A stretch of 64,000 nt of DNA from Muricea muricata (taxonomy: Eukaryota; Cnidaria; Anthozoa; Malacalcyonacea; Plexauridae). Location of the stretch: assembly GCA_963855995.1 (NCBI GenBank), contig OY979731.1, positions 1,637,001 through 1,701,000 of the forward strand, in the 5' to 3' direction. Positions 1,113-63,066 of this stretch are shown here, one piece after another. Both the position numbers and the translations under genes were made by a program. Position 1 is the stretch's first letter. Every line of letters starts with the position of its first letter. Below the pieces are notes generated by a model that saw nothing but the letters and a program-made list of their open reading frames with translations, had not been told where the DNA came from and searched no databases.

Positions 1113-1216
1113 ATGGCTCACTGTGCAAAGAATTTTGTGATCTTTATTTTGTATACATCAGTGTTTGTCGATGCTTATATATTACCGACGATATTTTGGG
1201 ACCCGCAATCACCCGT
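1113..1216 (+). CDS. Gene A exon 1, signal peptide and ephrin N-terminal motif
   Basis: This exon encodes 34 codons plus 2 nt and ends at a CCCGT|GTAAGTG donor. A hydrophobic stretch (VIFILYTSVFV) ending at Asp-Ala fits a cleaved signal peptide. The following FWDPQSP matches the equivalent first exons of gene B (VWDHYNP), gene C (IWDNVNT) and gene D (IWDIFNP). That shared motif, and the identical phase, is why this ATG was chosen. The exon sits between two 114-bp repeat arrays of opposite orientation. Confidence 0.8.
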
Positions 1217-4200
1217 GTAAGTGTCTTTTTCTTGTGCATGCTTTATATCAGCGGCTTGTTGTGCCACCGTGTTATCGTTGTTGTGTTGGTAACATAGAGT
1301 GGTTGATAGTGCCTGTGTCTTATATTTGCCTCTCAGGTACACATTGGTGCCGGGTCAATAAGACACAAACGCTGTAACTAGCTATCAAGTATAAATAACG
1401 TTAGTTTAGTTTAGGTTTCCTCCCGTAGTAACACTGGATCAATAAGAGATGATCCTTACTGGACCTCTAGGAAGAACAGTTTAGAACTGATAGAGCTATC
1501 CAGTATAAATAAAGTTAGTTTAGTTTAGGTTTCCTCCTGTAGTAACACTGGATGAATAAGAGATGATCCTTACTGGACCTCTAGGAAGAACAGTTTAGAA
1601 ATGATAGAGCTATCCAGTATAAATAAAGTTAGTTTAGTTTAGGTTTCCTCCTGTAGTAACACTAAGTCAATAAGTGATGATTCTTACTGGACCTCTTGGA
1701 AGAACAGTTTAGAACTGATAAATATGCAGAACTATTTATAGTTTAACTAACGTACCCATCTTTTGTATTTTATCCAGAGTATATAAGCCTGCTTCAGTTT
1801 ACGTTTCTTAATGCAAGCGCTATGCATTGCTACACGTTTTAACAAAAGCTATAGTTCCGGCGATCTCATGGACCAATATACGCTTGTTCCTTAAAATATA
1901 TTTCCGAAAACATTCGAACACAATATTTACAAGAGGCAACGACTTAACGGTCGGAAAAAACAGATTAATATATTTCACACGTTGAGATTACTAACGATAT
2001 ACCAGCAAACAGGGCTAGCAATATTTGACAGTAAAAATTAGAGCGACTCTAAAAAAGGGGACCTCCAGTAAGAACTGATAGAGCTAGCCAGTATAGATAT
2101 AGTTAATTTAATTCAGGTTTCCTTCTGCAGTAACACTGGAGCAATAAGAGATGATCCTTACTAAATGTGTAGAAAGAACAGTTAGATAGAACTGATAAAG
2201 TTGTCCAGCATAAATAAAGTTAGTTTAGTTTTACTGTGTATTCATAATTTTTAGACTTCGCGCAGAGCATTGGTCGAAAGTCGTTGGCGTAAAAATTTTC
2301 CAGACTTTGACTTTCTTGTGTCCGAATACTGAAATCAGCAATATTCCATTGGGGTCAACAAGCCGCAGAATATATTATAATCTATATGTCAGAGAACTTT
2401 ATCCTAACGACACGAATTTGGATTATGACACAATTTGTGACCCAAAACGTAAGTGACTTTTGTGGTATGGTATGGCATGGCATGGCATGGCATGGCATGG
2501 CATGGCATGGTATGGTATGGTATGGTATGGTATGGTATGGTATGGTATGGTATGGTATGGTATGGTATGGTATGGTATGGTATGGTATGGTATGGTATGG
2601 TATGGTATGGTATGGTATGGTATGGTATGGTATGGTATGGTATGGTATGGTATGGTATGGTATGGTATGGTATGGTATGGTATGGTATGGTATGGTATGG
2701 TGTGGTATGATGCGGTGTGGTTTGGTGTGGTGTAGTCCACTATAGTGTGACATCGAAAAGACAAAGACATATCTACAAGTAAACTTTCCTTTTCAGAATC
2801 CCACTACGTCCACTCCTGCAACCAAACATACAATTGGAAAATCAACTACAGAAAACTGTCAATCAATGTTATACAGGCGCATCAGGATGATCCTATATTT
2901 AAAGTTGGAATGGATTACATTTTCTTCTGTGAGTCATTGTCTTTTATTAACACTGGATCAATAAGAGATGATCTTTACTGGACCTCCAGGAAGAAGAGTT
3001 AAAACTGATAGAGCTATCCAGTATAAATAAAGTTTGTTTAGTTTAGCTTTCCTCCTGTAGTAACACTGGATCAATAAGAGATGATCTTTACTGGACCTCC
3101 AGGAAGAACAGTTTAGAACTGATAGAGCTATCCAGTATAAATAAAGTTAGTTTAGTTTAGGTTTCCTCCCGCAGTAACACTGGATCAATAAGAGATGATC
3201 CTTTAGACAGAACAGTTTACAATTGATAGGTAACTAAAGTTAATTTTGTCAACTTTAGCTACTTCCAATGGGTTGCAAAATTCATTATTAACGGGTTCAA
3301 CGAAATGCACTATGGTATTTCGGATTCATTTTTGTGAAGATGAAGAACACTGTCCTGTACCATTGTGCTCCACGTATGGCAGAGAAGAAGGTAAAACACT
3401 GAAATGTTGAGAATTAAAAAGTGGGATGTTTCAAGCGAGAGTTTGTATGAGAGTTTTCTCAACTCTCATGTCCTGGTCAAACGAGATCAAGAGTTGCACG
3501 AGAGTTGATCAGAGTTGACAAGCGAGAGTTTGTATGAGAGTTTTCTCAACTCCCATGTCCTGGTCAAACGAGAACAAGAGTTGCATGAGAGTTGATGAGA
3601 GTTGACAAGCGAGAGTTTGTATGAGAGTTTTCTCAACTCCCATGTGCTGGTCAAACGAGATCAAGAGTTTCATGAGAGTTGATGAGAGTTGACAAGCGAA
3701 AGTTTGTATGAGAGTTTTCTCAACTTTCATGTCCTGGTCAAACGAGAACAAGAGTTGCATGATATTTGATATTAACCACTACATGATGAATTATAACTAA
3801 TAATTTTAGCTTGTGTTCGCAAATCAAAGTCAAGCAATGCACCATGGGATGTCCGCGTGACAAATGCTGCGTCATCATCTGTCGCTGTATCCTGGCAACC
3901 GCCACTGAACACAGATAACGCAGTCGCACATTATTCCATTTGCTATCGCACCAACACATCTCAATCATGTGAAACTAAAATTGTCGAGGGCTACTCGAAC
4001 TTCACCATCTTGGAAAGTCTCAACGCTTCGACAGCATATTTCATTCGTGTGCGCGCGGTCACATGCAAAGGACCTGGAAACTATTCTGAGGAAATTTTGC
4101 ATAAAACTAGAGGTAAACAAATGATATTTTTGAAAATTTTAACCTTCTATCCCATATTCGGTTTTAAATTTTTCATCTTTCTGTCCTCACACCGGCAAAA

Positions 4201-7177
4201 CCATTGACAAGCTTGTCGACAGGTCGAGAAAATTTATTGACGACGTTTAACAAGCTTGGCGGGAAGGCCAAACCACATGGTTGTCCAAACAACACTAATA
4301 CAGTCATGATATCAACCTCGGGTGAAGTAGGATAATGTCTTCGAGCTTGCTGCAAGTTGTGAACAGCTTGAAACAAGCAACGCTAACACAACTCGCCAAC
4401 AGACTCGTTCACAGCACTTTTTACTGGTTTTGTTACGACGTGTGCGTTTTTGCTTGTAAATTTAACGTTGCCAGAATCGGTCAACCGAATTGAAAATAAG
4501 GACGCTAAACCGTAGGTACATCGGATCCCCTATCAATTGGGTATTAGTATACACTCGACCATAGACTATTACAAATCCAGAGTTTTGATTGGCTTCTCAA
4601 CCATGGACTATTCGTAATAGTCCATGGTTGAGAAAAACAACAAACCAAAGCTTCAAAATGGCGTCGCGTGATCTCGCGCGTATGTAAATACTTTATTCAG
4701 AGTGTACACTACAACAATTAGAGACAACTCGGCCTCGTTGACTATCCGCTCATAGACAACTCGACCTTGTTGTCTAATTGTTAAATAGCTTAGGTAAATC
4801 CGCACACCCAAAAACTACGAACAAAATAAGTAAAAAGAATTAGAAATGAATTCTGAGCATTGATCTTCTTTGTACACAGAACTGGTGATAACGGGCGCTC
4901 CAGAAAATGTTACATTTTCAAACGTCACTGTATCGTCTGTGACTGTCAGATGGAAAACTCCGGATGTCACTGTGGGAGATGTGATTTACTACAGACTGTG
5001 TGTTCGAGAGAAGCAGAATAGGAGCCCAGGGAGAGATTGTCGGTCAATGATAGTCGAGCCAACACAACTGTCGGCGGTTATCAGTGACCTCAAGGATAAT
5101 ACGTCGTATGGGATACGTGTTAGAGCTGAAAATTTTAAGAGGCCTGGGAACTATTGTGAGGAATTGATTATCAGGACTCTAGGTAGGATATTGCTTGGTC
5201 TTTGTCAGTTTAGAACTGACAAAGCTATCCAGTAGAGATAAAGTTAGTTTAGTTTAGGTTTCCTCCTGTAGTAACACTAGATCAATAAGAGATGATCCTT
5301 ACTGGACCTCTAGGAAGAACAGTTTAGAACTGATAGAGCTGTCTAGTAGAAATAAAGTTAGTTTAGTTTAGGTTTTCTCCTGTTCTAACACTGGATCAAT
5401 AAGAGATGATCCTTACTGGACCTTTAGGAAGAACAGTATAGAGATGATAGAGCTATCCAGTTTAAATAAAGTTAGTTTAGTTCAGGTTTCCTCCTGTAGT
5501 AACACTGGATCAATAAGAGATGATCCTTACTGGACCTCTAGGAAAAGCAGTTTAGAAATGGTAGAGCTATCCAGTTTAAATAAAGTTAGTTTTGTATAGG
5601 TTTCCTCCTGTAGTAACACTGGATCAATAAGAGATGATACTTACTGGACCTCCAGGAAGAACAGTTCAAAACTGATAGAGCTATCCAGTATAAATAAAGT
5701 TGGTTTAGTTTAGGTTTTATTCTTATTGTATTAATCATTGTTTATTTGTATCTAGCGATAGAAATACCAGTAGCAACTACAGAGTTGCCTCCCAGTTCAT
5801 CAACACTGCCAACTACATCAGAAAAAGGTAAGATATTCATCTATATGGAATTCTAGTAGTTTTTCAAGTAATGGCGTTAACTATTCCTATATAGGGGCCA
5901 GTCGTAGGCTATTTTAGGTTTCCTCGTGCACAAGAGATGATCCTTACTGGATCTCTAGGAAGAACAGTTTAGAACTGATAGAGCTATCCTGTATAAATAA
6001 AGTTAGTTTAGTTTAGGTTTGCTCCTGTAGTAACACTGGATCAATAAGAGACAATCCTGGATAATACTGGACCTCTAGAAACTACAGTATAAAACTGATA
6101 GAGCTAAATGATCACCCCGTATGAATACTGTTCATCTGCATTATTGCTGTTCTGTAATAATTTACTCCAGCTCAAAGATGTTATTCTTTATCCCCCCCAG
6201 GTCAGCCAACAGTGAATGCTCAACGTGGTTGCAGTGGATCTGCAATTGATTCTATGTCTATAATCGTTGGCATCGTAATTGGTAGTATATCAACCTTTGG
6301 AATCGCCGCTCTAGTTTGGCTGTTAAGATCCAAACGGGGGAAGGGCCTAGGTAAGTTGAAGTTATTTTAGATGGGGGGGGGGCGGGAAGGGGTTGACACA
6401 ATCGACAGAGCAAGCGCCTTTCATCTCTGAGATCGTGGGTTTGATCCTCACTTCAGACTTATGACAGTTACATGAGCTTTCTGCCGAAAGTTGTGGGTTT
6501 TCTCCAGGTACTCTGGTTTCCTCCCATGGGGAATGTTGACAAGGTGGGTTGAGATTAGCTCCTAACTGATCCTTCCATCGTAGCTGTGCTCCGTGATCAG
6601 ACATGAGTCGTAAGGTGGCTGTCAGAGGCGCCCTTAGAAAGCCTTCGACTGGATCATCTTAGACAACAAAAAACGTGCAAGTGGCAACAAGTCAGTTGAC
6701 GACAAACTTGTTATCAACAAGCCGATATCAGGATGCGTTCGCATGGCTTGCGACAGCTTGTTGACGACAAGTCTGCTGCAAGTTGTCAACAGGCTTCTGG
6801 CAAGTTAATTGTCAAAACTTGTTGTCCACGGGCTTGCTGCAAGTTGTTTCAACAAGTTGTAACAAGTTTGAAAATAACAAGTTGCAATGAGCCTGATTTT
6901 AACAGACTTGTTACAACTTGATGAAATTGAAAATTTTGTTACAACTTGTAGCAAGCCGATGAAATTGAAAACTTGTAACTTTTTCGTTTTTCGCTGTGTC
7001 GCTGTCAGCTGCAAGCAAAGATGATTTCCAAAAACGTTTCTTCTTATAGTTGGTACACCGAGGGTAAGAAACGCTACAAATAATGGCTTTCGATCCAGTG
7101 TGAGTGATGCGAACAAACTTGAGAAAAAGTACGGCAAGGACTCAACGGTGGAGCTGAATTCTGTCGCAACGAAATAA
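1113..7177 (+). CDS. Gene A: ephrin-domain / FN3 x2 single-pass membrane protein (9 exons)
   Basis: Proposed coding exons are 1113-1216, 2255-2448, 2797-2928, 3259-3390, 3810-4112, 4880-5182, 5756-5827, 6201-6350 and 7050-7177, which join to 505 codons plus a stop with no internal stop. Residues 1-21 form a signal peptide, followed by LPTIFWDPQSPV, which resembles the N-terminal YWNSSNP motif of ephrins. The ephrin-like domain runs to about residue 180, with cysteines at 57, 96, 107 and 160 in the four family positions. Two FN3 domains follow (about 188-390), then a Thr/Pro stalk, a membrane helix at about 434-455 and a tail of about 50 residues starting with basic RSKRGKG. Every intron begins GT and ends AG; the first is phase 2 and the rest phase 1. 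Unlike genes B-D, it lacks an extra Cys before the conserved Trp (LRAEHW). FN3 repeats are typical of Eph receptors rather than ephrins, so the domain order is unusual. Ligand function is inferred only. Confidence 0.85.
1392..1730 (+). repeat. 114-bp tandem repeat array, plus orientation (about 3 copies)
   Basis: Three copies of the 114-bp unit in intron 1 of gene A, opposite in orientation to the array at the left edge. A further degraded pair lies at 2064-2236, just before exon 2. Confidence 0.9.
2462..2715 (+). repeat. TATGG pentanucleotide microsatellite
   Basis: About 45 copies of GGTAT/GGCAT run almost without error, starting 14 bp after the exon 2 donor of gene A. Open frames on both strands here (Val-Trp-Tyr-Gly-Met or Ile-Pro-Tyr-His-Thr repeats) are artefacts of the repeat. 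Confidence 0.97.
2940..3235 (+). repeat. 114-bp repeat array in intron 3 of gene A
   Basis: About 2.6 copies in the same orientation as the gene, immediately after exon 3. Confidence 0.88.
3425..3765. repeat. AACTCTCAT / GAGAGTT tandem repeat
   Basis: Four copies of a unit of about 86 bp (AGCGAGAGTTTGTATGAGAG .. CTCAACTC .. CTGGTCAAACGAGA) in intron 4 of gene A. Related copies lie at 7335-7555, just after gene A, and at 38725-38850. The unit is rich in short inverted repeats of GAGAGTT/AACTCTC. Confidence 0.85.
3810..4112 (+). CDS. Gene A exon 5, fibronectin type III domain 1
   Basis: A 303-nt phase 1-1 exon encodes one complete FN3 domain. Seen are the strand B tryptophan (VAVSWQPP), the strand C tyrosine motif (HYSICYRT) and the strand F signature (STAYFIRVRAVT), followed by G-P-G-N-Y-S-E-E. 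A Cys pair (ICYR and QSCE) is shared in position with the next FN3 exon. Several N-x-S/T sites suggest extracellular glycosylation. The identical length of this exon and exon 6 indicates tandem exon duplication. Confidence 0.88.
4593..4634. repeat. Perfect short hairpin in intron 5 of gene A
   Basis: TTCTCAACCATGGACTATT is followed within 3 bases by its exact reverse complement. A related ATAGACTATTAC occurs 30 bp upstream, so this is probably the tip of a decayed foldback element rather than a functional RNA. Confidence 0.6.
4880..5182 (+). CDS. Gene A exon 6, fibronectin type III domain 2
   Basis: A second 303-nt phase 1-1 exon. It has VTVRWKTP, YYRLCVRE and TSYGIRVRAEN in the expected FN3 strand positions, then RPGNYCEE, which parallels GPGNYSEE of exon 5. 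The Cys pair (RLCV and RDCR) is in the same place as in the first FN3. It is followed at once by an intronic 114-bp repeat array. Confidence 0.88.
5205..5720 (+). repeat. 114-bp repeat array in intron 6 of gene A
   Basis: About 4.5 copies in gene orientation, starting 20 bp after the FN3-2 exon donor and ending 35 bp before exon 7. About 1.7 more copies lie in the next intron at 5910-6105. Confidence 0.9.
6201..6350 (+). CDS. Gene A exon 8, transmembrane segment
   Basis: A 150-nt phase 1-1 exon preceded by a strong C-rich acceptor (TATCCCCCCCAG). It encodes a short Cys-containing juxtamembrane part, a helix of about 22 hydrophobic residues (including SIIVGIVIG and FGIAALVWLL) and a basic stop-transfer run RSKRGKG. 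This fixes the topology as N-terminus outside. The final exon (7050-7177) adds the rest of a short tail, with no kinase or other recognisable domain, ending in NSVATK. Confidence 0.85.
6395..6665 (+). mobile_element. tRNA-derived SINE, family 1
   Basis: Carries CTGAGATCGTGGGTTTGATCCTCAC, where GGGTTTGATCC resembles a pol III B box, then a conserved body (GTGGGTTTTCTCCAGGTACT, GGGAATGTTGACAGG, CATCGTAGCTGTGCTCCGTG). Other copies are at 22695-22940, 30530-30750, 37590-38010 and 53660-53775, all in plus orientation. It sits in intron 8 of gene A. Confidence 0.7.
6665..6985. repeat. AACTTGT / ACAAGTT palindromic repeat family
   Basis: Dense short inverted motifs (CAAGTTGT, ACAACTTG, CAACAAGC). 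The same family occurs at 4195-4400, 10575-10925, 11610-11835 and in each unit of the 41-47 kb duplication (e.g. 42145-42330). It probably derives from a foldback transposon. It produces spurious open frames and encodes nothing recognisable. Confidence 0.75.
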
Positions 7178-7751: not shown

Positions 7752-7779
7752 CATACGAGAAAGAAGCAAGTCTATCTTT

Positions 7780-9088: not shown

Positions 9089-12000
9089 CTGAATACACAG
9101 AAACAAACTGTTAGCTTATTTATAATTTATTAATGATTTATTCAGATAATCTTTTTAGTGCTAAACTGATCTTCCCGGAGGTCCAGTAAGGTTAATCTCT
9201 TATTGGTCCAGTGTTACTACAGGAGGAAACCTAAACTAAACTAACTTTATTGTACTGGATAGCTCTATCAGTTCTAAACTGCTCTTCCTAGAGGTCAAGT
9301 AAGGATCATCTCTTATTGATCCAGTGTGTTACAACAGGAGAAAACCTAAACTAAACTAACTTTATTTATACTGGATAGCTCTATCAGTTCTAAACTGTTC
9401 TTCCTAGAGGTCCAGTAAGGATCATCTCTTATTGACCCAGCGTTACTACAGGAGGAAACCTAAACTAAACTAACTTTATTTATACTGGATAGCTCTATCA
9501 ATTCTAAACTGTTCTTCCTAGAGGTCCAGTAAGATTCATCTCTCTGTATAGTGTTCTCACAACAGGCACCAGAGTCTACAAATGTGTCAATGATAAATTC
9601 GTATTTCGTACTTTCAGAGAGAGGAGGCTTCTTTGGAATTGCTCCAGCCTGTTTCTCTGATCCCAAATTGTTATTATCATGGCTTTTGGACTGACTTCCT
9701 TGTTTGTAATTGTCACCTGCTTCAATTGAAAATAAAAAAAGATAATGATCTGGTTTGATTATTGACTAATGATTTAAACTGGATAGCTTTATTAGTTCAA
9801 AAATCTGCCCCGTAAAGAGCATGTCCTATCGATCGAGTGCTACTATAGGAGGAAACCTAAACTAAACTAACTTTATTTATACTGGATAGCTCTATCAGTT
9901 CTAAACTGTTCTTCCCAGAGGTCCAGAGTAAGGATTATCTCTTATTGATCCAGTGTTACTACAGAAGGGACTATAGGAAAAACTAACGATGGTTATCTAA
10001 GATAAGTTAACGATATTTACTTTTTCTCTGTTTCTTTTGCGGCCGACAGATGAAAAAGTAGATGAGACACATGATAATTGCGATGAATAACATGACAAAA
10101 AATCCTGCAAGGAAACCATTTCTAAAGGAATCCCATTCCTCAGTTGAACCTTTTTGTTTGCTTGAATTTGCACTAAGTTGTGTAGTATTTGAACGTTTGG
10201 AAGGCGATGTAATTGTCCTCTTAGTTTGCTCTCCAGTTGAAATTCGAGCTGTTGTACTATTTGTTGTCGTGGACCTTCTACCAGTTTGGGTTCTGTCGGT
10301 TGCGTTTGTCGATTGTGTTGCTGTCGTTGTTGTGTTTGCTCTTGTCGGTGCTGTTGTTGTGGTCGCTCTTGTCGCTGCTGTTGTTGGACACGCGTCAGTT
10401 GGGGTACATGTCTCATAAAGGTTATTGCAATGTTGACCTTCAATAAATGTAAATCACAATTAGTCGAAACCGATCCAGTTTGCCCGTTAAAAGCAACTGT
10501 ATGATGACAGTGCGTCTTTGAGGCATTTGCAGTGTTTATAAAAACAGTACTCTCTATAGTGCAGGCGTGAAAATATCACAACTTGTAGCAAGTCAGTCAA
10601 CAAACAATAAAAAAGTTTCGGACAATTTGTTGACAGCTTCAACAAGCTTGACAGGAATATCAGACTTGTTGCAAGGTTGTCCTAACAACTCTGATACAGA
10701 CCTGTTGTAACAAGATTGTCACAAATTTGACAACACAATTAAGGCTGTAACAGTATTGTTATATCATGACTGTATCAGTCTTTTCGGGACAGCCTTGTAA
10801 CAAGTCTGATAGTCCCATCAAGCCAGTTGCAAGTTGTTAACAGCTTGTTCCAAACTTGCTCCAACAACTTGAAACAAGCAGGGCGAACAACTTGTCAACA
10901 GCTTGTGCATGGACACACTTGTTTGTTACAATTCGGGCGTTTATATATTCCTATGCTGCAAGACGTTGCATTTTTTTTCGTAAAAAGCAAATATAGATAA
11001 ACTTACAGTTTGTGTCAAGATTCTTCTTGTAAATCAAACTGTATTTTGTAGCGACATTCCAAGTAATTATTGCTACGAGACCCATTGCGCATTTCTTGTC
11101 ATGACTTCCAAGACTCGATTTCTTTCCGTCGTTGGCATTATCTGAGGGGGAATTTAAAAAAGAAATATCGAATACCAGTCTCGTCTGTTTTGAAAATCTC
11201 ACTGTTCTTCATGTCACCCAGTCATGATCCAGTGATCTCAAAATGTTCCATTGTCTTTTCATTGTTTCGAAAACCTCAAAAGACTCTTTTCCACTTATCG
11301 TGAATTCCAAATTGCTACCTCAATGCAATTGGTTTCATCTAATCACAATGCTTGTTGTTTTATTAATGGTGCAAGCACTCGCATTGACCTTGCGCACGGG
11401 TTCTGCGGCGGAAAAGATCCTTGAGTCTATTAGCTCTAGGTTTTTAAATATCTGACATAAAATGAAGAATGGAATAAGGTGCACTTACTGAACCATACAA
11501 CAATGTCGCCTTTCTTGTAACCGGTGTCTCGCGCAAATCGCATCTTCTTTCCCTGTCCATGGTTCCCATCTTTACACGTAAATATTTTTTCTATATAAGA
11601 AAAAACCCAACTTTTCAAACAAAAACCAACTTGTCGACAAGCTGCAAAAAACTTGTTAATTTCATCAAGTTACAATAGGTCTGCGGAAGCCGGGCTTGTT
11701 GTTATTTGATGAAATTAACACATTGGTTGTAACCTGTTTAACCAACTTGCAGCAAGCCCGTGGATAACAAGTTTTGACAATCAACTTGTAACAAGTCTGT
11801 TGACAACTTGAAACAGACTTGTCGCTGACATTCTGATAGGTGGTGTTACCAAGTAATTACTTACGAGCATCGTTGTGATTTGGGTCACAGAATTCTCCGC
11901 TTTTCATTTGCTCTTTTAGCTCGTCCAGTGTCCCAGTCCACTTTCTCTGAAACATATTCACATTCATGCGATCGTTGGGTCTTGACTGGTCGTCCATTAA

Positions 12001-21000: not shown

Positions 21001-21175
21001 CTTCATTGTGTGTGCTTTGACTGGCTGTATATTGCTCTAGATACGCTAACACATCAACGTGTACTCACATTGGATTGTAATGATCCCAAACAATGCTCGG
21101 CAGATATCTCGTGGCATACCCCTCTTGATGAAACGTTAAAAGAAATAGGACGGCGCTCAAGAAACTCGACGGCAT
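9024..21175 (-). CDS. Gene B: ephrin-domain membrane protein with Thr-rich stalk (7 exons)
   Basis: Proposed exons in transcript order are 21175-21069, 12097-11865, 11590-11489, 11141-11007, 10437-10021, 9716-9561 and 9088-9024, giving 404 codons plus a stop. The signal peptide covers residues 1-21, then comes LPSIVWDHYNPM. Family cysteines are C60 (VFVCPTP), C106 (EFCDPN), C119 (FTCKDG) and C165 (KKCAMG); an extra Cys at 39 precedes the conserved Asn-Trp. A Cys cluster (QHC..YETC..DAC) follows the domain. Then comes a Thr/Ser-rich stalk of about 85 residues, likely heavily O-glycosylated, a membrane helix at about 301-323 and the basic CRPQKKQRK. The tail includes PKKPPLSES and ends NTLKRGDSPA. 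An upstream in-frame ATG at 21253 is possible, but the start at 21175 gives the same 35-codon first exon as gene C. Intron 1 is about 9 kb and full of repeats. The gene converges on gene A. Receptor-ligand function is inferred from the family only. Confidence 0.85.
9150..9545 (-). repeat. 114-bp repeat array in intron 6 of gene B
   Basis: About 3.5 copies in the gene's own orientation, between exons 6 and 7. About 1.7 more copies lie at 9775-9970 in intron 5. One copy abuts the end of exon 6 and keeps its reading frame open. Confidence 0.88.
10021..10437 (-). CDS. Gene B exon 5, Thr-rich stalk and transmembrane helix
   Basis: A 417-nt phase 1-1 exon. In the frame set by the flanking exons it reads a Cys cluster, then repeated Thr-Thr/Ser runs (e.g. 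ATRATTTTAPTRANTTTTAT), then a hydrophobic segment containing FFVMLFIAIIMCLIYFF and a basic stop-transfer sequence. Other frames of the same DNA look Gln-rich or Val-rich, but these are artefacts of the CAACAACGA-like codon run. The acceptor (TTTATTGAAG|G) is weak; it was placed by phase and by homology to the Cys-rich exon borders of genes A and C. Confidence 0.82.
12730..12890. repeat. 92-bp satellite, short copy
   Basis: About 1.7 copies of a 92-bp unit (CATGATCTAACCATGCTTAA, GTGAGTTCTGTA, ACATCAGATCACTTTAAGAT) in intron 1 of gene B. A longer array of the same unit lies at 53030-53505. Confidence 0.85.
13390..13560 (-). pseudogene. Degenerate KRKGRPRLY-type coding fragment, copy 1
   Basis: The minus strand reads HKRKGRSGLYHIVESDFATT and then stops. 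Two related copies occur at 25850-26020 (-) and 58265-58410 (+). GRPR followed by a Val-x-x-Asp-Phe/Leu stretch recalls the C-terminal end of some non-LTR retrotransposon polyproteins; that assignment is a guess. This copy is clearly broken. Confidence 0.45.
13650..13800 (+). mobile_element. tRNA-derived SINE (tRNA-Ala-like head)
   Basis: Begins GACCGCGTAGCTCAGTTGGC (A-box-like) and has GGTCGTAGGTTCGATTTCC (B box), ending CTTGGTC, which pairs with the first GACC. A non-tRNA body follows (CAGCTTGCCCGGTGTGGATA). The stems are imperfect, so this is a SINE or tRNA pseudogene rather than a working tRNA. It lies in intron 1 of gene B. Confidence 0.7.
14262..14640. repeat. 80-bp tandem repeat
   Basis: Nearly five copies of an 80-bp unit (GACAGCTTATTGTAGAATAC, ACACTAGACCACCACGTTTG, AGATATCTTTTTCAGGTAG). 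Diverged single copies recur at 20695-20955 in the same intron of gene B. Confidence 0.88.
14880..20690. other. Inner part of gene B intron 1
   Basis: Mostly unique AT-rich sequence. It contains a G11/C11 run pair at 15272-15309, a MITE at about 17068-17300 and one 114-bp repeat remnant pair at 18600-18745. No exon with convincing splice sites and coding character was found. Confidence 0.5.
17068..17300. mobile_element. MITE, ACAGC-AAAAACGAACAACC family, copy 1
   Basis: Inverted ends of about 40 bp (CAGCCAAAAACGAACAACCT and its complement) enclose a core of CAATGTTGTTCAACATTGTT-like palindromes. The better-preserved copy is at 25529-25770; diverged copies are at 27945-28130 and 59265-59440. 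No transposase is present. Confidence 0.75.
21069..21175 (-). CDS. Gene B exon 1, signal peptide and ephrin N-terminal motif
   Basis: Thirty-five codons plus 2 nt end at an AAT|GTGAGTAC donor. A hydrophobic core (FLSAVLFLLTF) is followed by Gly-Tyr-Ala, then ATRYLPSIVWDHYNPM, which aligns with gene C (ATRFLPSVIWDNVN). In-frame ATGs also occur at 21184 and 21253. Confidence 0.8.
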
Positions 21176-53521: not shown

Positions 53522-53580
53522 CTATGTTGCCGTCTTCGTTCTCGGTTTGAGTTTAATTGGCGGAAGGCGTCTAGATCTCT
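53522..53580 (-). CDS. Gene D last exon
   Basis: An excellent acceptor (TTTTATATTTTCCCCCAG) leads, in the phase left by exon 16 (53850-53791), into RSRRLPPIKLKPRTKTAT and TAG. The basic, proline-containing end is unlike the tails of genes A-C. Confidence 0.65.
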
Positions 53581-56500
53581 CTGGGGGAAAATATAAAATT
53601 TACCTCGCATAAAATTAGACTGAAAATGTCAGTGCTTAATGTAATAGGAAGCATCTTCGATTGTTAGGATCAGCTCCTAACTGATCCTTCCATCGTAGCT
53701 TTGCGTCGTGATCAGACATGAGACTTAAGTCTGCTGTCAGAGGCGTCCTTAGAAAGTCTTCGACTGGTCTTTAGATGCTACATAACTTACCACTTGTCTC
53801 ACCAACTGAAGGTAATCTTCCAGTGCTGCTTGTACGACTTGCGACAAAACCTTTGGAAATGAAGAAATAACCAAAAAAAGCTGAATATGTTTCTAAACCG
53901 CTCTTCCCAGAGGTCCAGTAAAGATCATCCCTTATTAGTTCAGTGTTACTACAGGAAAAAAACCCTAAACTAAACTAACTTTATTTATACTGCCAGGATA
54001 GCTCTATCAGTTCTAAACTGTTCTTCCAACAGGTCTAGTAAGGATTATCTCTTACTGATCCAGTGTTACTACAGGAGGAAACTTAAACTAAACTAACTTT
54101 ATTTATACTGGATAGCTCTATCAGTTCTAAACTGTTCTTCCTAGAGGTACAGTAAGGATCATCTCTTATTGATCCAGTGTTACTACAGAAGGAAACCTAA
54201 ACTAGACTAACTTTATTTATACTGGATAGCTCTATCAGTTCTAAACTGTTCTTCCTAGAGGTCCAGTAAGGAACATCTCTTACTGATCCAGTTTTTACTA
54301 CAGGAGATTTAGTTCTAAATGTTTCTTTAATAGTTCATACCATTGGATGCATCACAAGGTGGAGTTGTTGGTGTAGGAGATGTTAGTGCAAAACCTTGAT
54401 TAGGAAGGTGATTTTTCTTCAGGTAAGGAAACTTAAACTAAACTAACTTTATACTTGATACCTCTGTCAGTTCTATACTGTTCTTCCCAGAGATCCAGTA
54501 AGGATTATCTCTTATTGATCCAGTGTTATTACAGGAGGAAAGTTAAACTAAACTAACTTTATTTATACTAAATAGCTCTGTCAGTTGTAAACTGTTCTTC
54601 CTGGAGGTCCAGTAAGGAACATCTCTTATTGATCCAGTGTTACTACAGGAGATTCAGTTCTACATGTTTCTTTAATGGTTCATACCATTGGATGCATCAT
54701 AAGGTGGATCTGTTGGTGTAGGAGATGTTGATGCAAAAGCTTGATTAGAGAAACCTGAATGATAAGATAATTTGTTAGTGTGAATCCAGTTCGTAGACTT
54801 CTAGGTTTTCTTTAATAGATGTACACATCCTTACCAGCAGTAGTAGATTTACAAGGCGGTGTAATTTCGTTTTGGGGGGGTTTGTTATTCAACATCATCT
54901 TGTCTGTGTAAGAGATAAAACGTTAAGGTGATTTTTCTTCAGGTAAGGAAACTTAAACTAAACTAACTTTATACTTGATACCTCTGTCAGTTCTATACTG
55001 TTCTTCCCAGAGATCCAGTAAGGATTATCTCTTATTGATCCAGTGTTATTACAGGAGGAAAGTTAAACTAAACTAACTTTATTTATACTAAATAGCTCTG
55101 TCAGTTCTAAACTGTTCTTCCTGGAGGTCCAGTAAGGAACATCTCTTATTGATCCAGTGTTACTACAGGAGATTCAGTTCTACATGTTTCTTTAATGGTT
55201 CATACCATTGGATGCATCATAAGGTGGAGCTGTTGGTGTAGGAGATGTTGATGCAAAAGCTTGATTAGAAAAACCTGAATGATAAGATAATTTGTTAGTG
55301 TGAATCCAGTTCGTAGACTTCTAGGTTTTCTTTAATAGATGTACACATCCTTACCAGCAGTAGTAGATTTACAAGGCGGTGTAATTTCGTTTTGGGGGGG
55401 TTTGCTATTCAACATCATCTTGTCTGTGTAAGAGATAAAACGATAAGGTGATTTTTATACTTGATAGCTCTGTCAGTTCTAAACTGTTCTTCCCAGAGAT
55501 CCAGTAAGGATCATCACTTATTGATCCACTCTTACTACAGGAGGAAAGTTAAACTAAACTAACGTTATTTATACTAGATAGCTCTATCAGTTCTGAACTG
55601 TTCTTCCCAGAGGTCCAGTTAGGACCACCTCTTATTGATCCAACATTGCATTTTCTTGTTTCTGATTACCATGGTTAACTATTTTGCGCGTATTATTTGC
55701 AAGTGAAGTGAGCGATGTCATTTCAATAACACGTTCACATTGTAATACAATGGAAACGAATTGCAAGTAACGATTTATCTGTACCTTTTTTTTTTGAACA
55801 AATCCACACGATTATCACCAACTCAATGAGCGCTATAACAGTCGCAGCCACAAACAAGCCGACCCAGGGAGATATGGGGCCCGGTGTTTCACCGCTTCTT
55901 CCTGGATATAAAGTAAGTTAAGCAATCAGGACAGCAATTGATGTCGTGATTTGCGAATCACAAGCATGTTTACAGACAACTGGCAATAAGAATTGCGTTT
56001 AGTATGAAGACAATATTTCAAGTAAGAATATCAATCTTTACCTCCTGCACGTGGACTTGATTTAGTGTTGTCTGAAAATTGGAATGACGTTTAATAATAC
56101 GAGCTGCATTTAGATTTTAGATAGCTATCTTGATATTAAAAGAGACCTTATAGTAAAGAAAAAATGTGATGCGAGCAGTTCCTATAGCATTATTACAGAA
56201 AATAAAAATATGTGGTTTTTAAACATTTGTACATACTTGCTTTATCCGTAGTGCTTGAGGTGGAAGGTCTAGTCCCTGAGGAAACAACTAGAATAAAACA
56301 GTTAAATAATGTACCTCAGAACCAAATTATTAATCTGAATTAGAAAATGTTTCTTTCAATAACAACGTTGACATACTGATATATCTTCTGCACGTAATTT
56401 CTAAATTAGAGTGCACCGAGGCACTTAGAGGTTTCCCAGTTAGAACTCCAATAGCATTATTACAGGAAATAAAAATTATGTGGTTTTTAATATTTGTACC

Positions 56501-59500
56501 TGTCTTAATCGTAGTTATTGTGCTGGAATGTGTAGTCTCTAAGGAAAAAAGTAGAAACACAGTTAAATAATATACCTTTCAGCCAAAGAAACTAATTAAT
56601 CGGAATCGGAACATTTTTCTTTCAATAACAACGTTGATATACACTGACATATCTTCTGCACGTAATGACAAAACTAGAATGAAGCGCGTCACTTGAAGAC
56701 ACAATTAGAACTTCGGTTTCCTCGTTAGAACAACAACAGAATTATTACAGAAAATAAAAATTATGTGTTTTTTTGATAATCGTACCTGTTTTATCCGTAG
56801 TTCTTTCGCTGGAAGGTGGAGTCCCTGAGGAAATAACCAGAAACGCAGTTAAATAATGTACCTTTTAGCCACAGAACCTGATTAATCTGAATCAGAACAT
56901 TTTCCTTTCAATTACAACGTTCACATAATGACATACTGTATCTTCTAAACGTAATTACTAAATTAGAATGCAGCGAGTCACTTACAATCACAATCAGAAC
57001 TTCGCCTTCCTGGTTAGAATATTTTACAATAGCTAGAATCACAATAACAATATATCCGCCTTCTACTGTATGCGCACACGAGGTCGTTTTTGAGCGTTTT
57101 CACAGCAGTCAAAATGAAAACGATATGAACTACAAAAAAATCTCATCGTTTAGTTTTTGTCCTTAGACGAGATTTATCCTGGTTTTCATTCAATGGACCA
57201 ATCCCACTATTAGACAAACTTTTGAATTCGCGGAATCGATTAGCACAGCTGGAAAGAGCATCCTAAATTTCATACAATTGTCAAGTTTGGTTGCAAAATA
57301 TTCTAAAATGTGGAAAATATAGCCCTGTAAAGTTTGCGAATTTTGTATACTTTTGTATTACGAACGGAAAAGCGTTACCACTATGAGGGAATGTGGTAAC
57401 GCTTTTCCCCGCGTAATACAAAAGTATACAAAATTCGCAAACTTTACATTACTGTATTTTCGACATTTTACAATATTTTACAACCAAAGTTCACAATTTC
57501 ACTAAATTTAGGAAGCTCTTTCAAATCGTGCTAAAATTGTTTTCAAATTTAAAAGTTTATCAAGTTGGAGAATGGTCCATTATGTTAACAAGTCGGGGGC
57601 TTTTTGAAATAATTCGGAATGAAAACGTTCCGAAACGCCAACGTGCGAGCGTTGTCTAAACTAGAATAATTTGTCTCACAATTACATGAAAATAATTTGG
57701 AATCATGCGCAGTGAGGAAGTTCGATTGCTTTCTAATTGATAATTATAAAGTATATGCTTAATTACAATCCCAACCACAATTTTGATTTGTATAAGTAAG
57801 GTCTGCAATACCAGCGGCCGCGTAGTATAAAAATATTTTAAATTTTAACCTGGTTTAGGCGTTGTTGTGGAGGCAAGGCCATTGCCTAAAGAATAGAATG
57901 AAAATTAATTTTTTACTTAGACAGTAATTAATCACAATTAGAATTTCTCTACCAATTACAACGTCAATAATTAGAATCACAATTGCAATGCCATATCTGT
58001 ACCTTAGGATCGTCTGGAAATAATTGGAATTAAGCCCACTGACAAAACGTGCCTTTTCATTACTACTTACAAAGTTGATGTTTAATTTAGAATCCCAATT
58101 AGAAGACTGGTTTTGTAATTAGAATAATTTTTATACTTCCTCACCACATTTACAATCTTCCTCGATATTGCCACAATTTCCTGTTGAAAAAATAATCGAA
58201 AATTACTTTGTTTACGTTTAAGCCTAGCCGCGAATGTCATGAATATATGAAAGAACCGATGTGATAGACAGCACACACAGATCTACACTTACAGTAACAT
58301 AACTAGTTTGAATACTGCCCACAAAAGAAAAGGTAGACCTAGACTATATCACATCGTCCAAAATGACTTTGGTACGACAGTTACGACCAAATGTAAACTG
58401 GACTCTACTTCGTTATATTTTTGTTATACTTCGGCAAAGTAAAGTTATCCTCAAAGCGAAGTGAGCGGTGAACAGACTGGTGAGACTGGGCTTAGTTCAG
58501 CCAGGTTATCGATTACGGGCCAGTTGTGCAAAAGCCAGTTAGCTTAACCCTGGGTTAACGTAAAATTCCTTTTCAAACTTTCCAGTAGCCTGTTGATAGT
58601 ATTGCAAGATATTTCTTTAGAAATCTTGTTTTGATCAATGGTAGTTTTGCTTTGTAAAGTTTCAAAATAAACGGATATGTAGAAATACAGAAACTGGAAC
58701 ATTGGGTTAAACTTTAACCCGGAGCGAAAACTGCGATTTCGACGAGCAATTTTTATCTGATTGTGCTCAATTTTTCTTTCAAATTTTACAATAAATGCTC
58801 GGTCTTTCGTACTGTGAAAGAATTATTTCTGTATGGTATATTTTGAGCGTCCTAGAGTATCCCAAATACGACAATGTTTTTTTATATACCCTGTATTATG
58901 CAGCTCTGCTGACCAGCTTTCGTAAAACGGTGGTAATTCGGTCTTACTCTTACCTGGCTTTGGTTTGATACATTTACCATAAGACATGTCGTATGCCTTT
59001 TTTTCGCTTGAAGTAACATTTACGATAAAAACCATGGTACATTTCCTCCTGTCGCTGTCCACCTCACTTTGTTTTCCTTGTAGCGTATTGGCTGCGGCAA
59101 AGGGTTCATTAAACAAGTAATCAATGCGAGTTAATGAATTACTATTGCCTTTCAAGTCTTTAGCGCTTTTCCGCCAATAATTTTTTTGTCTGCGAATACC
59201 GATACATTGCAATCATGTGTGTTACTGGCTAGCAAAAAGTTGCAGTAAATAAGAGCGTTCCTTCCTCCGCATCAAGTTGTTGCAATATTGCCGGCTGAGC
59301 AGCATTGCAACAATATGGTTATGATGATTGAAAAACATTGTTGAATCATCGGTATTGCTCGTTGCTGTTTGAACAACATTGTTCAATGCTGCTGTTATCA
59401 ACCCTGAACAGGTTGTATATACGTTTTTACGCGTGTGCTTATTAAATACTATAAAGTAGCTTTGGGGAATGTTACGATCCTAATTAACGATCCCACGAAC

Positions 59501-62500
59501 GTGGAAATCTGTATGTTTGTCTTGTAACATGCCCTCTAAACTGTTATGGAAAAATGCGTGCTGTTATTAGTTGAATTTGTAGTTTTTGTATTCATTTGTA
59601 AATCACAAATGAAAATAATAGCCCCAAAACAGCATCACGTAAGTTCGAGCTAGAATCCAAAAAGTAACCCAAAACCGGGAATATAAACAATAGTAATAAA
59701 AATGCAATGTAAAGCAAGGCAGGGACTTAATCACAGGAGATAGACTATTCTGTATTAAAACTTACAAAATATAACAGCTAGGTTTCCTTTTTCAAAATCT
59801 TCATCACTATGGATCCTAATTTTGTAGTTTTTAGTCGCATCGCCCTGCTCGCATTTGTATAGATGTTCTGAAATTTAAAATTGCGAGGTACAATTACGTG
59901 GTGGTGATGATGATCATATGAGTCACAATTTAGGGGTTGTTACTATTTTTAGATTCTCAGAATTCGGATTAGGGTTAGGATAGGGGTAGAATTACGGTTA
60001 GGACTCGGTTAAAGGTTAGGATTGGGATTTAGATTATGGTTAGATTTAGTGTTTGGATTGGCATTAAGATTAGGATTTTGGTTAGGATTATAATGCAAAA
60101 AGTCTAAAAATAGAAACAACCCCTAAAACGTGACATGCATAATGATAATGATGATAGTGATGTAAACCATAGACAATCTAAGGAATGGACTGGAAACGCA
60201 AGCTAAAGTTTACGCGACATCCGTGGTACGCTTTACTTTGGAACCCTGTAACTTCCCTTTAAATACATTTCAGGACTTCGTATTTACATATTTTAAACAA
60301 GAACAGAAATGTGAATGCAACTATCGACTTTTAAAACTTTTCAGAGAGATAAACGAGGCGGAAAATCACCATTTAATGTTTCCGTAAACCTTTTTCAACA
60401 ACAACAATGGCGACATTTCTGCAATCAAAAAGAATGCAAACATTCAGCGTTGGGTTTTAGCTTTGTTATATCCATAAAGAATTTTAAAAGTCGATAGTTC
60501 CATAGAGATTGCCGTTCTTGTTTAAAATATGTAAATAGAAAGTCCTGAAGTATATTTAAAGTGAAGTTACAGGGTTCCAAAGTATAGCATATCAGGCCGT
60601 ATCACGGATGTTGCGTCAGCAACATTGATACTTTAGCTTGCGTTTCCAGTCCATCTGTTGATTGTCTATGTGTAAACAAAGCCTCACTTACTTGACTGGC
60701 TTGGGTCACAAAAGGAACCATTGTTGAGTGACTGCTGCAATTCTTTCAATTCTTCCTCTGAATGAGTGGTTGCATTAAATACCCTCATGTACATTTTATA
60801 ATACACACTTGCTTTCGAGACATCATGAGTTCTGTATGCAGAGACGATATATGGTTTGGGACAAAGTAGCTCAATACGATCATATATATCCAGTTGTGGA
60901 ATATTGTTCATCCAGTTGCATTTGCATTTTAACCTTTAATGGTAAGGCATTTGTGAGTTTTACTGTTAGTAGTGATGATGATGATATTGATGATGATGAT
61001 GATGATGATGATATGGATCATGGATGATGATGTAATATTGATGATAATGATGATGATATTGATATTGATGATGATGTTGATGATGATGATGTTGATGATG
61101 ATGATGTTGATGATGATGATGTTGATGATGATGTTAATTATGATGATGATATTGATGATGATGATATTGATGTTAATGATGATGATGATATTGATGATGA
61201 TATTGATGATGATGTTGATGATGATGATGTTGATGATGATGATATTGATGATGATGATATTGATGATGTCAATGATGATGATGATATTGATGGTGATGAT
61301 GATGACATTGATGATAATGTTAATTATGATGATGATATTGATGATGAACCTATATCTTTCGTGCCCTTTTAACCGCACTTCAATGATTCTTTGCTATGGG
61401 ACATAATAAAAGTGTGCGACAACACCTTAAAAAAAAACAAACAGACCCCTCTACAAGGAATATTACTATTGAATATATTTAATTACTCACGCCCTGATCG
61501 TGATCTGAATGAAATTACAATAATGGCAATCAACATAACTAATATTGTGTCACGTAGAGTTGCATCGCCCACTCAGGAGACATATGTTATATTTCTGACT
61601 GCTTGCAAACAAACTTACATTCGACCACATCAGATGTGTCCTAAAAGCCGCCATCTTATTATATACCGTAGTATTGAAAACAAAGATACAAAATACAACA
61701 TATTGTCTAAAATATTACGAAAAACAAATGTAATGAACAATTCAACATGGGAGTGAACAATTCAGTAGTGTACAAAGTAAATATGATGATAATTGCATAG
61801 CAACAGTAAATTAATCTTGATTTTGAAAAACATTTGTACACACAATTATTAACATGGGTACCATCCGAAACCCCCTAGAAGAGCGTTTTCAAATTCATTT
61901 TCACCGTGAATGTATTAAACCTTGCAGCCACTATATCGTATCGTGCATTGTGCTATTTTTTTCGATATTGCTCAACTAAACTATGCGTTTACTTGTATTG
62001 GCCTAGACAAACACGGAAATATGACACGAGTTTTGTTCTAAAATTTAAGCCCATGTAAATAATAAATTCTACCATATTTTACACAATGAGGCTTTACCAA
62101 AGCAATTTGCTTTCATTTTCAGCAATTCTGAGAATGTTGGCTCGTTACATTCTAAATTCGCGAACAATAATATGTTTTTCTCACGAAGTTCGAGTCTAGA
62201 ATACTCTCGCTGTTTTTTTTTTATGATAGCTTACGGGATCATGTTACATGGCATAAAGATTATTTAGTCAAAACAACAAAGAATCATTCCGGTTTCTCTA
62301 ATCTTTCAGGATTGCACTATTATCAATCTTAGTTAATAATCGTTACTCAGTTAAGTATAAATTTAGGTAGATTGACTTGAATCATACCCGGCAGGTTGGG
62401 AAGCAAATTAATTTGTTACAAAACTGTCGCAGAGAGAACAGAAAGGCGTAAAAGCATTATTGAACTCGCGAGAGATAAAAAGTGACTTCAAACATTTCAG

Positions 62501-63066
62501 TTTTACCAGTTATTCAACAATCATGCACCTACAACGAGCCCCATTTCAGTTTTTGTCTTTCCCACAAAGGTAGAGATTTTATTCTATAGCCGTATTTTCC
62601 CTGAAGGAGGAATATTTTGTGTAGCACATAAATTCATTTAGGTAAACACGAAACCGGTAGTTTAATATAACATGGTGTCAGCTTGGCTAGGCAAACGTTC
62701 ACACATGATCATCAACAATTCATCGAAGTCAAAGACGCGTTCGAATTGCTGCTCTTTCCAATATATTTCATAATTCGAATCCATAATTCGCATAGCATTG
62801 ACTAATTCGCCTTTCTAGCTACACAATACGGCAACTGTAAGAAAATCGAACGTTGCTACATTTCCAAACAGCAGAAGTGAGTCGTAGCAACAAAAATCAC
62901 CCATTGTTTAGCAGGTATCGACTGCCTGTACTTACATCGGGTTAAATATGTCCCATATTATCGATGGTTGCCAGCGCGTAGCCGCTTGTACGTTGTCCCA
63001 TCTCAAGACGATTATAATAAAGAACAAAGAAGCGAGAATAATACGTTTCAGCAACGAACAATGCAT
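53522..63066 (-). CDS. Gene D: ephrin-domain membrane protein with mini-exon stalk and repeated tail (17 exons)
   Basis: Proposed exons are 63066-62936, 60933-60692, 59867-59766, about 59148-58954, 57885-57850, 56824-56786, 56538-56500, 56275-56237, 56071-56042, 55901-55785, 55423-55355, 55259-55206, 54903-54835, 54739-54686, 54394-54341, 53850-53791 and 53580-53522, which join to 462 codons plus a stop. The signal peptide is about 28 residues, then WQPSIIWDIFNPM. Ephrin cysteines are C68 (LLCPKP), C119 (SFCDPS), C130 (YKCEQG) and C195 (RKCTMV), with extra C47 and C49 before Asn-Trp. Exon 4 is longer (195 nt) than in the other genes and its acceptor (TTGAAAG|GC) is weak, placed by homology. 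The Thr/Ser stalk is split over five tiny exons. The membrane helix is at about 297-319, followed by CSKKK. The Pro/Thr-rich tail contains a duplicated exon pair and ends in basic KPRTKTAT. All introns are phase 1 except the first. Confidence 0.82.
53890..54310 (-). repeat. 114-bp repeat array in intron 15 of gene D
   Basis: About 3.7 copies in gene orientation between exons 16 and 15. Similar short arrays at 54430-54655, 54950-55175 and 55455-55645 lie in the neighbouring introns and were copied along with the tail exons. Confidence 0.88.
54341..55423 (-). CDS. Gene D duplicated cytoplasmic-tail exons 11-15
   Basis: Exon 11 (55423-55355) and exon 13 (54903-54835) are near-identical 69-nt exons encoding a Lys/Pro-rich piece (SKPPQNEITPPCKSTTA or the N-K variant). 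Exon 12 (55259-55206), exon 14 (54739-54686) and exon 15 (54394-54341) are 54-nt exons encoding FASTSPTPTAPPYDASN and its DPPYD and TPPCD variants. Exon pair 11-12 is repeated as 13-14 by a 519-bp tandem duplication. All borders are phase 1, so copies add 41 residues each in frame. Confidence 0.72.
54405..55445. repeat. 519-bp tandem duplication inside gene D
   Basis: Two near-identical 519-bp units (about 54405-54923 and 54924-55442), each with a pair of 114-bp repeat copies and two tail exons (54 and 69 nt). A third truncated start is at 55443. Confidence 0.88.
55785..55901 (-). CDS. Gene D exon 10, transmembrane helix
   Basis: A 117-nt phase 1-1 exon. It encodes GETPGPISPW, a hydrophobic segment (VGLFVAATVIALIELVIIVW) with one buried Glu, and ICSKKK as the stop-transfer signal. 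The A10 run at the 3' border encodes the lysines and is followed by a GTACAG donor. Confidence 0.82.
56042..57885 (-). CDS. Gene D stalk mini-exons 5-9
   Basis: Five very short symmetric phase-1 exons: 57885-57850 (36 nt), 56824-56786, 56538-56500 and 56275-56237 (39 nt each) and 56071-56042 (30 nt). The 39-nt exons encode TPPSSERTTDKT, TTHSSTITTIKT and TRPSTSSTTDKA, clearly variants of one 13-residue module. The surrounding intron sequence repeats with a spacing of about 265-290 bp, so exon and intron were duplicated together. Any of the exons can be skipped without losing frame, so stalk length could vary by splicing. Confidence 0.75.
57195..57585. mobile_element. Foldback element with near-perfect inner arms
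   Basis: Inverted arms of about 185 bp. The inner part (GCGAATTTTGTATACTTTTG, then GTATTACG..GGAAAAGCGTTACCA) is almost identical to its complement; the outer part is more diverged, ending AATGGACCA / TGGTCCATT. It lies in intron 5 of gene D, upstream of the stalk mini-exon repeats. Confidence 0.82.
58265..58410 (+). pseudogene. KRKGRPRLY-type coding fragment, copy 3
   Basis: The plus strand reads HKRKGRPRLYHIVQNDFGTT and VTTKCKLDS, matching the 25.85-kb copy, and is preceded by a diverged N-terminal part. It is followed at 58425-58520 by a repeat (CAAAGCGAAGTGAGCGGTGA) that also occurs in inverse orientation at 23950-24010. Confidence 0.45.
59923..60133. mobile_element. Foldback with degenerate TTAGGATT loop
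   Basis: Ends of about 30 bp (TTTAGGGGTTGTTACTATTT and the complement of AAATAGAAACAACCCCTAAA) enclose about 130 bp of GGTTAGGATT/GGGTTAGG-like repeats. It is in intron 2 of gene D, next to another MITE. Confidence 0.7.
60172..60669. mobile_element. MITE with 170-bp inverted arms in gene D intron 2
   Basis: Outer ends CATAGACAATC .. GGACTGGAAACGCAAGCTAA and their complement; arms also match over TTTAAACAAGAAC and GCAACTATCGACTTTTAAAA. The only open frame (60 codons) lies in the loop and is not recognisable. The right end is about 23 bp from gene D exon 2. Confidence 0.78.
60970..61355. repeat. GAT trinucleotide microsatellite
   Basis: About 385 bp of GATGAT with interspersed TTGAT units in intron 1 of gene D, starting about 40 bp from the exon 2 acceptor. 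Met-Met-Leu or Ile-Ile-Asn open frames here are artefacts. Confidence 0.96.
61360..62930. other. Remaining intron 1 of gene D
   Basis: AT-rich and mostly unique. A 121-codon open frame at 61391-61756 (+) lacks recognisable motifs and splice or initiation context, so I leave it uncalled. Confidence 0.4.
62936..63066 (-). CDS. Gene D exon 1, signal peptide and ephrin N-terminal motif
   Basis: Forty-three codons plus 2 nt end at an AT|GTAAGTAC donor. A long hydrophobic core (IILASLFFIIIVL) precedes a likely cleavage after Val-Gln-Ala. WQPSIIWDIFNPM then aligns with exon 1 of genes A-C. Together with the same phase-2 border this identifies the start of gene D. Confidence 0.8.

Follow-up and report, generated by a model that had tools for sequence, protein, structure and literature searches.

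A divergent clade of putative transmembrane ephrins in the octocoral Muricea muricata, with apparent FN3 fusions and shortened docking loops

Ephrins are cell-contact signalling ligands, and fibronectin (FN3) domains are usually found in their receptors. We analysed a stretch of 64,000 nucleotides from the octocoral Muricea muricata (contig C16, OY979731.1, positions 1637001-1701000; hereafter the window), in which a first-pass annotation had noticed four ephrin-like genes, here termed A to D, and we searched the 453-Mb assembly, which consists of 74 contigs, for relatives. Gene E lies outside the window on the same contig, and genes F and G lie on contigs C2 and C3, respectively. Our preferred reading, to which we give a probability of roughly 0.78, is that A–D, E, and G represent a divergent clade of octocoral transmembrane ephrins in which FN3 fusions and short docking loops have arisen, with a tandem array of Eph receptors in the same genome, and with the different roles that we propose below.

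The models of genes A–D were rebuilt from splice sites, with GT/AG introns throughout, and the open reading frames of all four genes are intact. Gene A is encoded on the forward strand (1113 to 7177), whereas B, C, and D are encoded on the reverse strand with starts at 21175, 40992, and 63066, and the numbers of exons are 9 (A), 5 (B), 8 (C), and 17 (D, ending in a stop codon at 53522). In each gene the first intron is in phase 2 and the later introns are in phase 1. Exon 1 encodes a signal peptide, called by eye, and ends in WDPQSP (A), WDHYNP (B), WDNVNT (C), or WDIFNP (D); its tryptophan, which corresponds to W25 in PMC6485061, is kept in A–E and also in F and G. Several exon lengths recur, namely 107 nt (exon 1 of B and C), 233 nt (exon 2 of B and C), 102 nt (exon 3 of B and D), and 132 nt (exon 3 of A and C). 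The four cysteines expected of an ephrin domain, which would form two disulphides, occur in sequence order in A–E and in G, and hydropathy analysis finds one C-terminal hydrophobic segment apiece in A–E as membrane anchor. The first-pass annotation had described the signal peptide exon with its WD-x-x-N-P-like end, the phase-2 first intron followed by phase-1 introns, and the four repeated exon lengths, all of which the rebuilt genes bear out. Its cysteine positions were exact for A (57/96/107/160), B (60/106/119/165), and C (59/108/121/174); for D, with exon 4 as first annotated, they were 68/119/130/195, and here a different place is preferred for the fourth. An acceptor at 59091, 57 bases further in, is preceded by 64% pyrimidines, compared with 32% for the acceptor chosen before, and yields an exon of 138 nt with an SNT start, the same as in paralogue G. 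Because of this pyrimidine-rich upstream sequence and the match to exon 4 of G, Cys4 of gene D is better placed at 176 than at 195. The correction removes 18 net residues (from 466 to 448 letters, the latter counting the stop) and leaves an open frame of 447 residues plus stop in 17 exons. The alignments, the exon-4 profile, the tree, and the D–G comparison described below used the uncorrected D with its 18-residue excess (466 versus 448), and the hhalign tests, which were rerun with the corrected D, were barely altered.

At the level of single exons, Pfam (Ephrin cut-off, 25 bits) gave no Ephrin match in any of A–E, and cnidarian ephrin counts may therefore be too low. When spliced, gene E matched Pfam Ephrin with 45.4 bits over 7-136 of 140 (E=1e-11), and the isolated joined domain of gene A reached 26 bits over 7-131. 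Profile–profile comparison by hhalign gave E=2e-8 for the alignment of A and E with the domain exons of the six ordinary ephrin loci in this genome, against E=0.015 for the best of 20 column shuffles, and it aligned B, C, and D with A and E at E=3e-18 (6e-18 with the corrected D), with none of five column shuffles below 0.08; A–E together matched the six ordinary ephrins with a probability of 95% (E=2.9e-8). The best single argument for ephrin descent is the gene structure. At all six ordinary loci (L001-L006), the domain exon starts where exon 2 of A–E starts, with an acceptor compatible with phase 2, and closes with a phase-1 donor right after the YYFI strand, like exon 3 of A–E. One extra phase-1 intron, between Cys2 and Cys3, is present in A–E and in none of the six ordinary loci. 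A maximum-likelihood tree placed A–E and G apart from the six ordinary ephrins with support of 99/99, identities within the clade being 25-40% to A or to E. Together, these comparisons of sequence and gene structure show A–E and G to be ephrins by descent that form one divergent clade, that is, ephrin paralogues with a putative role as Eph ligands. The divergent ephrin family of the first-pass annotation is thereby supported by the Pfam match of E (marginal in A), by hhalign, by the intron positions, and by the tree, and the profile search with Pfam PF00812 that it had suggested succeeded for E and marginally for the isolated domain of A, and failed for B, C, and D singly.

The family extends beyond the window. 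A hidden Markov model built from the four second exons was searched against 6,349 open reading frames of at least 25 residues in 264 kb and recovered the four training exons and gene E (E=6e-12), and since the next match followed only at E=0.18, the resemblance of the second exons is not due to chance. Within 100 kb on either side of the window, gene E, on the reverse strand about 8 kb to the left, was the sole extra member, and none was found to the right. A 26-base exon-1 pattern had nine matches in the whole genome versus two for the reversed control: five are A–E, two are the family-like first exons of F and G, and two have stops upstream. The latter (C3:11281972 and C3:11335243; L036 and L037) are near-identical, lie about 53 kb apart, and were not read as ephrin exons; they perhaps mark a duplicated segment. 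Gene F is known from exon 1 alone, and of gene G the D-like exons 2 (minus the first few bases), 3, and 4 could be read, so that the divergent clade counts at least seven members (A–G). An exon-4 pattern was uninformative, as it gave 24 matches in the genome and 62 for the reversed control. An exon-1 profile match at C16:1713764-1713868 (E=0.0035) was set aside, as no WD motif was present when it was read. Just after gene A, at 7338-7442 of the forward strand of the window, a stretch matches the exon-4 profile below threshold (E=0.019) and may be a remnant or a chance match.

Five divergent genes and four of the six ordinary ephrin loci are situated on C16 (11.6 Mb, 2.6% of the genome). For the ordinary loci this has a probability of about 6e-6 under a random spread of independent loci, with the qualification that one locus on C16 and one on C1 are copies of each other with 96% identity. 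We infer from the sequences that the A–E cluster arose by local duplication, and the tandem expansion past the window that had been anticipated is seen in gene E and, on other contigs, in F and G. The description of the family as fast-evolving is borne out only in the sense of divergence, with the 25-40% identity given above. D and G are 61% identical over 151 codons, and over exons 2-4 the non-synonymous divergence (dN, 0.272) is well below the synonymous one (dS, 0.712; dN/dS about 0.38), which indicates purifying selection on D and G as whole genes. Pseudogenes were rejected in view of the open frames, of this ratio, and of the absence of any orphan ephrin exon above the inclusion threshold in the 264 kb.

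Several features go beyond what had been annotated at first, namely two FN3 domains in gene A, the shortened loop of B and D, the Eph tandem array, and receptors in which FN3 is lacking. The FN3 domains of gene A are each encoded by one exon (Table 1), and they adjoin the membrane segment in the gene model, as does the single FN3 domain of gene E (38.2 bits), which follows the ephrin domain after a short Pro/Thr linker and precedes the membrane helix; the model of E runs as far as this helix. There is no kinase in the gene models of A or E. On present sequence evidence, A and E appear to be ephrin–FN3–transmembrane fusions. Since the FN3 exons are 1-1 in phase, they can be inserted without a frame shift. 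Among the PDB neighbours of the gene A FN3 are titin, receptor phosphatases, and others, including Eph FN3, which is not at the top. In B, C, and D, Thr/Pro-rich stalks take the place of FN3. It could be argued that gene A is really two genes, one with the ephrin exons and the other with the FN3 and membrane exons, and we regard this as very unlikely: both parts are on the same strand and in the same phase with canonical splice sites, inspection by eye from exon 4 to the first FN3 exon showed neither a start nor a signal exon, a different membrane anchor was not seen for the ephrin part, and the neighbouring gene E repeats the exon order. It is this same order in E on which we rejected the two-gene explanation.

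The second peculiarity concerns the G-H loop, which is described as crucial in receptor recognition and fairly conserved in length in PMC6485061; the four cysteines and the aromatic residues W25, F120, Y126, and Y127 are named there as conserved in ephrins. The distance from Cys3 to the loop end is +25 in B, D, and G. Ephrin-B2 has +31, the six ordinary octocoral ephrins range from +30 to +36, and A, C, and E lie at +31 to +33. Compared with the seven ordinary ephrins (the six and ephrin-B2), B, D, and G thus have a G-H loop region reduced by at least 5 residues, and because the measure spans strands plus loop, the exact site of residue loss is given by inference. B, D, and G also have no loop-end tyrosine, the residues being VV (B), AV (D), and TV (G).

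The putative receptors are encoded elsewhere in the genome. The Ephrin_lbd profile found 13 exons above cut-off, all in tandem on the reverse strand of contig C5 within 350 kb (C5:15066329-15409348; L007-L010, L031, L045), and we count at least 13 Eph ligand-binding exons. One receptor, L031, was read from the ligand-binding exon (38.3 bits) through the kinase pieces, three of the four tyrosine-kinase pieces being above cut-off, and Ephrin_CRD (21.9 bits) and Ephrin_rec_like (17.6 bits) being under cut-off; a second, L045, was read from the cysteine-rich exons through the membrane exon, its ligand-binding exon being in L008. In both readable receptors a Pro/Thr stalk and a membrane helix come within about 300 bases after the last cysteine-rich frame, and no FN3 was found between the cysteine-rich and membrane exons in either of them. 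Pfam detected no FN3 in seven reading frames of L031, and a home-made FN3 profile detected none in seven Eph loci (best E=0.29). Another Eph region, L046, contained no recognisable exon.

A number of observations weigh against our reading. Gene A drops to 22.4 bits in Pfam Ephrin when the full protein is used, below the cut-off, and among the other joined domains that of C reaches only 11.6 bits, with no match for B and D. The hhalign comparison of B, C, and D with the six ordinary ephrins is weak (probability 30%, E=5e-4) and weaker still for the genes taken singly (B 7%, C 2%, D 6% probability), and since B, C, and D are weak alone, it is through A and E and the shared intron positions that they are identified as ephrins. 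A profile of A–D found no match in the PDB, where an ordinary ephrin exon of the same genome, too, finds ephrin-B2 at no better than E=0.014. The intron comparison in the six ordinary loci covers the domain exon alone, with its own acceptor and donor. The loop-end tyrosine pair (Y126 and Y127 in PMC6485061) is incomplete even in A (YI), C (YV), and E (YM), and the absence of FN3 refers to two receptors of 13, alike by eye, the second of which was judged by the home-made profile alone. From the failure of B, C, and D to reach the Pfam cut-off it might be concluded that the domain is a cupredoxin-like surface module which merely resembles an ephrin, is not derived from one, and was co-opted for another adhesion task; closely related monodomain cupredoxins are in fact mentioned in PMC6485061. 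This explanation is hardly tenable, given the Pfam match of gene E, the two domain-bounding intron positions common to all six ordinary loci, and the four cysteines and the tryptophan in place, and a generic cupredoxin was rejected on the shared intron positions together with the match in E.

For these ephrins a division of tasks can be proposed. E, A, and C, which have a loop of ordinary length, would most likely serve as ligands of the arrayed Eph receptors where cells touch. In A and E, FN3 could hold the ephrin domain at a greater distance from the membrane, and such a spacer would possibly offset the lack of FN3 in the receptors. B, D, and G would most likely be without the usual Eph docking and may be weak or decoy ligands, modulators, or ligands of other partners. 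As every intron after the first is in phase 1, FN3, stalk, and tail exons could probably be added or duplicated without breaking the frame. The same ease of insertion through phase-1 exons is compatible with an ordinary cnidarian ephrin expansion followed by neutral drift, in which FN3, stalk exons, and loop shortening would be incidental and all members would be redundant class-B-type ligands in tissue-boundary signalling; large lineage-specific cnidarian expansions with transmembrane anchors have been published (PMC6485061, PMC6993872). We give this a lesser but appreciable chance of being right; against it speak the short loop of B, D, and G on two contigs, with D and G as wholes under purifying selection, and the presence of FN3 in two neighbouring genes. 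The expansion of both the ligand family and the receptor array might alternatively point to a recognition system, for self/non-self or colony contact, under diversifying selection. A part for Eph/ephrin in cell segregation is proposed in PMC6993872, where allograft boundaries in sponges are mentioned too. The purifying selection on D versus G speaks against diversifying selection, and a literature search on ephrins and cnidarian allorecognition gave, by title, nothing on topic; we thus regard such a system as quite unlikely. A bolder extension of our own proposal, in which the FN3 spacer moved from receptor to ligand, the Eph array and the divergent ligands expanded together into matched sets for the recognition of cells or colonies, and the short-loop ephrins became non-docking regulators, is a long shot.

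The exons of the four genes are compiled in Table 1. In gene B, a C-terminal tail exon near 9715 runs into a repeat array, and the model stops at exon 5. The tail of gene D contains a duplicated pair of 69+69-nt exons (54686-55423), identical in 135 of 138 bases, each pair with a PPY motif, and an additional partial copy was noticed by eye near 54.36 kb.

Table 1. Exons of genes A–D and repeat arrays, in positions of the window
Feature	Positions	Strand	Remark
Gene A exon 1, signal peptide, ...LPTIFWDPQSP	1113..1216	+	donor gtaagt, phase 2
Gene A exon 2, ephrin domain, Cys1 and Cys2	2255..2448	+	
Gene A exon 3, Cys3 and G-H loop of ordinary length	2797..2928	+	
Gene A exon 4, Cys4	3259..3390	+	
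Gene A exon 5, FN3 domain 1, symmetrical 1-1 exon, 303 nt	3810..4112	+	Pfam fn3 54 bits
Gene A exon 6, FN3 domain 2, 303 nt, 1-1 phase	4880..5182	+	Pfam fn3 48.7 bits
Gene A exon 7, Thr/Pro-rich linker	5756..5827	+	
Gene A exon 8, transmembrane segment	6201..6350	+	hydropathy
Gene A exon 9, cytoplasmic tail to stop	7050..7177	+	
Gene B exon 1, signal peptide, ATRYLPSIVWDHYNPM	21069..21175	-	
Gene B exon 2, ephrin domain, Cys1 and Cys2, extra Cys before NW	11865..12097	-	
Gene B exon 3, Cys3, shortened G-H loop	11489..11590	-	
Gene B exon 4, Cys4	11007..11141	-	
Gene B exon 5, Cys-rich start, Thr-rich stalk, transmembrane segment	10021..10437	-	hydropathy
Gene C exon 1, signal peptide, ATRFLPSVIWDNVNTL	40886..40992	-	
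Gene C exon 2, ephrin domain, Cys1 and Cys2	34620..34852	-	
Gene C exon 3, Cys3, G-H loop of ordinary length	33753..33884	-	
Gene C exon 4, Cys4	32780..32899	-	
Gene C exon 5, Cys-rich start and Thr/Pro stalk	32194..32400	-	
Gene C exon 6, transmembrane segment	31649..31780	-	hydropathy
Gene C exon 7, cytoplasmic tail, three tyrosines	30785..30865	-	
Gene C exon 8, last codons (...ERNV) and stop	30471..30481	-	
Gene D exon 1, signal peptide, ATRWQPSIIWDIFNPM	62936..63066	-	
Gene D exon 2, ephrin domain, Cys1 and Cys2	60692..60933	-	
Gene D exon 3, Cys3, shortened G-H loop	59766..59867	-	
Gene D exon 4, corrected acceptor, Cys4, 138 nt	58954..59091	-	
Gene D exons 5-10, six stalk mini-exons of 30-39 nt	58180-58145, 57885-57850, 56824-56786, 56538-56500, 56275-56237, 56071-56042	-	
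Gene D exon 11, transmembrane segment	55785..55901	-	hydropathy
Gene D exons 12-17, cytoplasmic tail to stop	53522..55423	-	
114-bp unit arrays	14-607, 1380-1720, 2948-3205, 5206-5717, 9157-9543, 21587-21928, 23073-23412, 28513-28997, 31832-32107, 32974-33691, 33932-34533, 53891-54748, 54946-55171		

Arrays of a 114-bp tandem unit recur in both orientations, many of them in introns of A–D, and stretches of them read as open frames. Just upstream of exon 1 of gene C, at 41672-46784, a segment of about 2.4 kb is repeated in tandem, a 300-base stretch of which is present in three copies at spacings of 2408 and 2405 that are 96-98% identical. A tRNA-Ala (AGC), possibly a short interspersed nuclear element, is predicted at 13649-13723 within the long first intron of gene B, and a 92-bp tandem unit at 53030-53502, after the stop of gene D, resembles by eye the sequence of gene B intron 1 at about 12720-12880. 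Elsewhere in the assembly, the mitochondrial contig C74 (19,292 bp) has a gene order in keeping with that of octocorals and carries a MutS gene (MutS_V match), an atypical feature of octocoral mitochondria according to PMC3166940, and a second COX1-like stretch with one TAA (C1:38414782-38416095; L033) is possibly a nuclear copy of mitochondrial DNA.

We found no report of an ephrin–FN3 fusion or of a short-loop ephrin subfamily in the openly licensed literature, supplementary files excepted, and the Ephrin domain is described as specific to ephrins in PMC6993872. An ephrin domain in a coral setting is also known from ephrin-B2-like genes of the coral symbiont Endozoicomonas montiporae (PMC4781883, PMC6993872), which are bacterial and are suggested in PMC6993872 to have been transferred from coral. 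One peptide pattern of an ordinary ephrin matched 22 stretches in bacterial genomes, none of which was confirmed, and the pattern missed the published bacterial genes too. The closest known relatives are the cnidarian class B-type ephrins (PF00812), with which the genes described here share the signal peptide, the four-cysteine ephrin domain, the exon-1 tryptophan, the single membrane helix, and the lineage-specific expansion. They differ from these by the additional intron within the domain in A–E, by the low identity within the clade, by the FN3 fusions of A and E, and by the short docking loop of B, D, and G, and they differ from ephrin-B in that no end motif was seen in the tails by eye, no search aimed at it having been made. 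The Eph genes of the same genome encode a ligand-binding domain, cysteine-rich exons, a membrane helix, and a kinase, as in known Eph receptors, whose overall architecture is described as unchanged within Metazoa (PMC6993872) and as conserved except for FN3 number, the length of the cysteine region, and SAM loss (PMC6485061). Unlike this published architecture, two receptors of the array have a Pro/Thr stalk in which no FN3 was found. An FN3-fused ligand, FN3-less receptors, and a cut-down docking loop would be natural variants with which intermembrane spacing and docking can be tested separately. In Eph receptor tyrosine kinases, FN3 before the membrane helix is typical of the ectodomain, whereas in A and E it appears on the side of the ligand.

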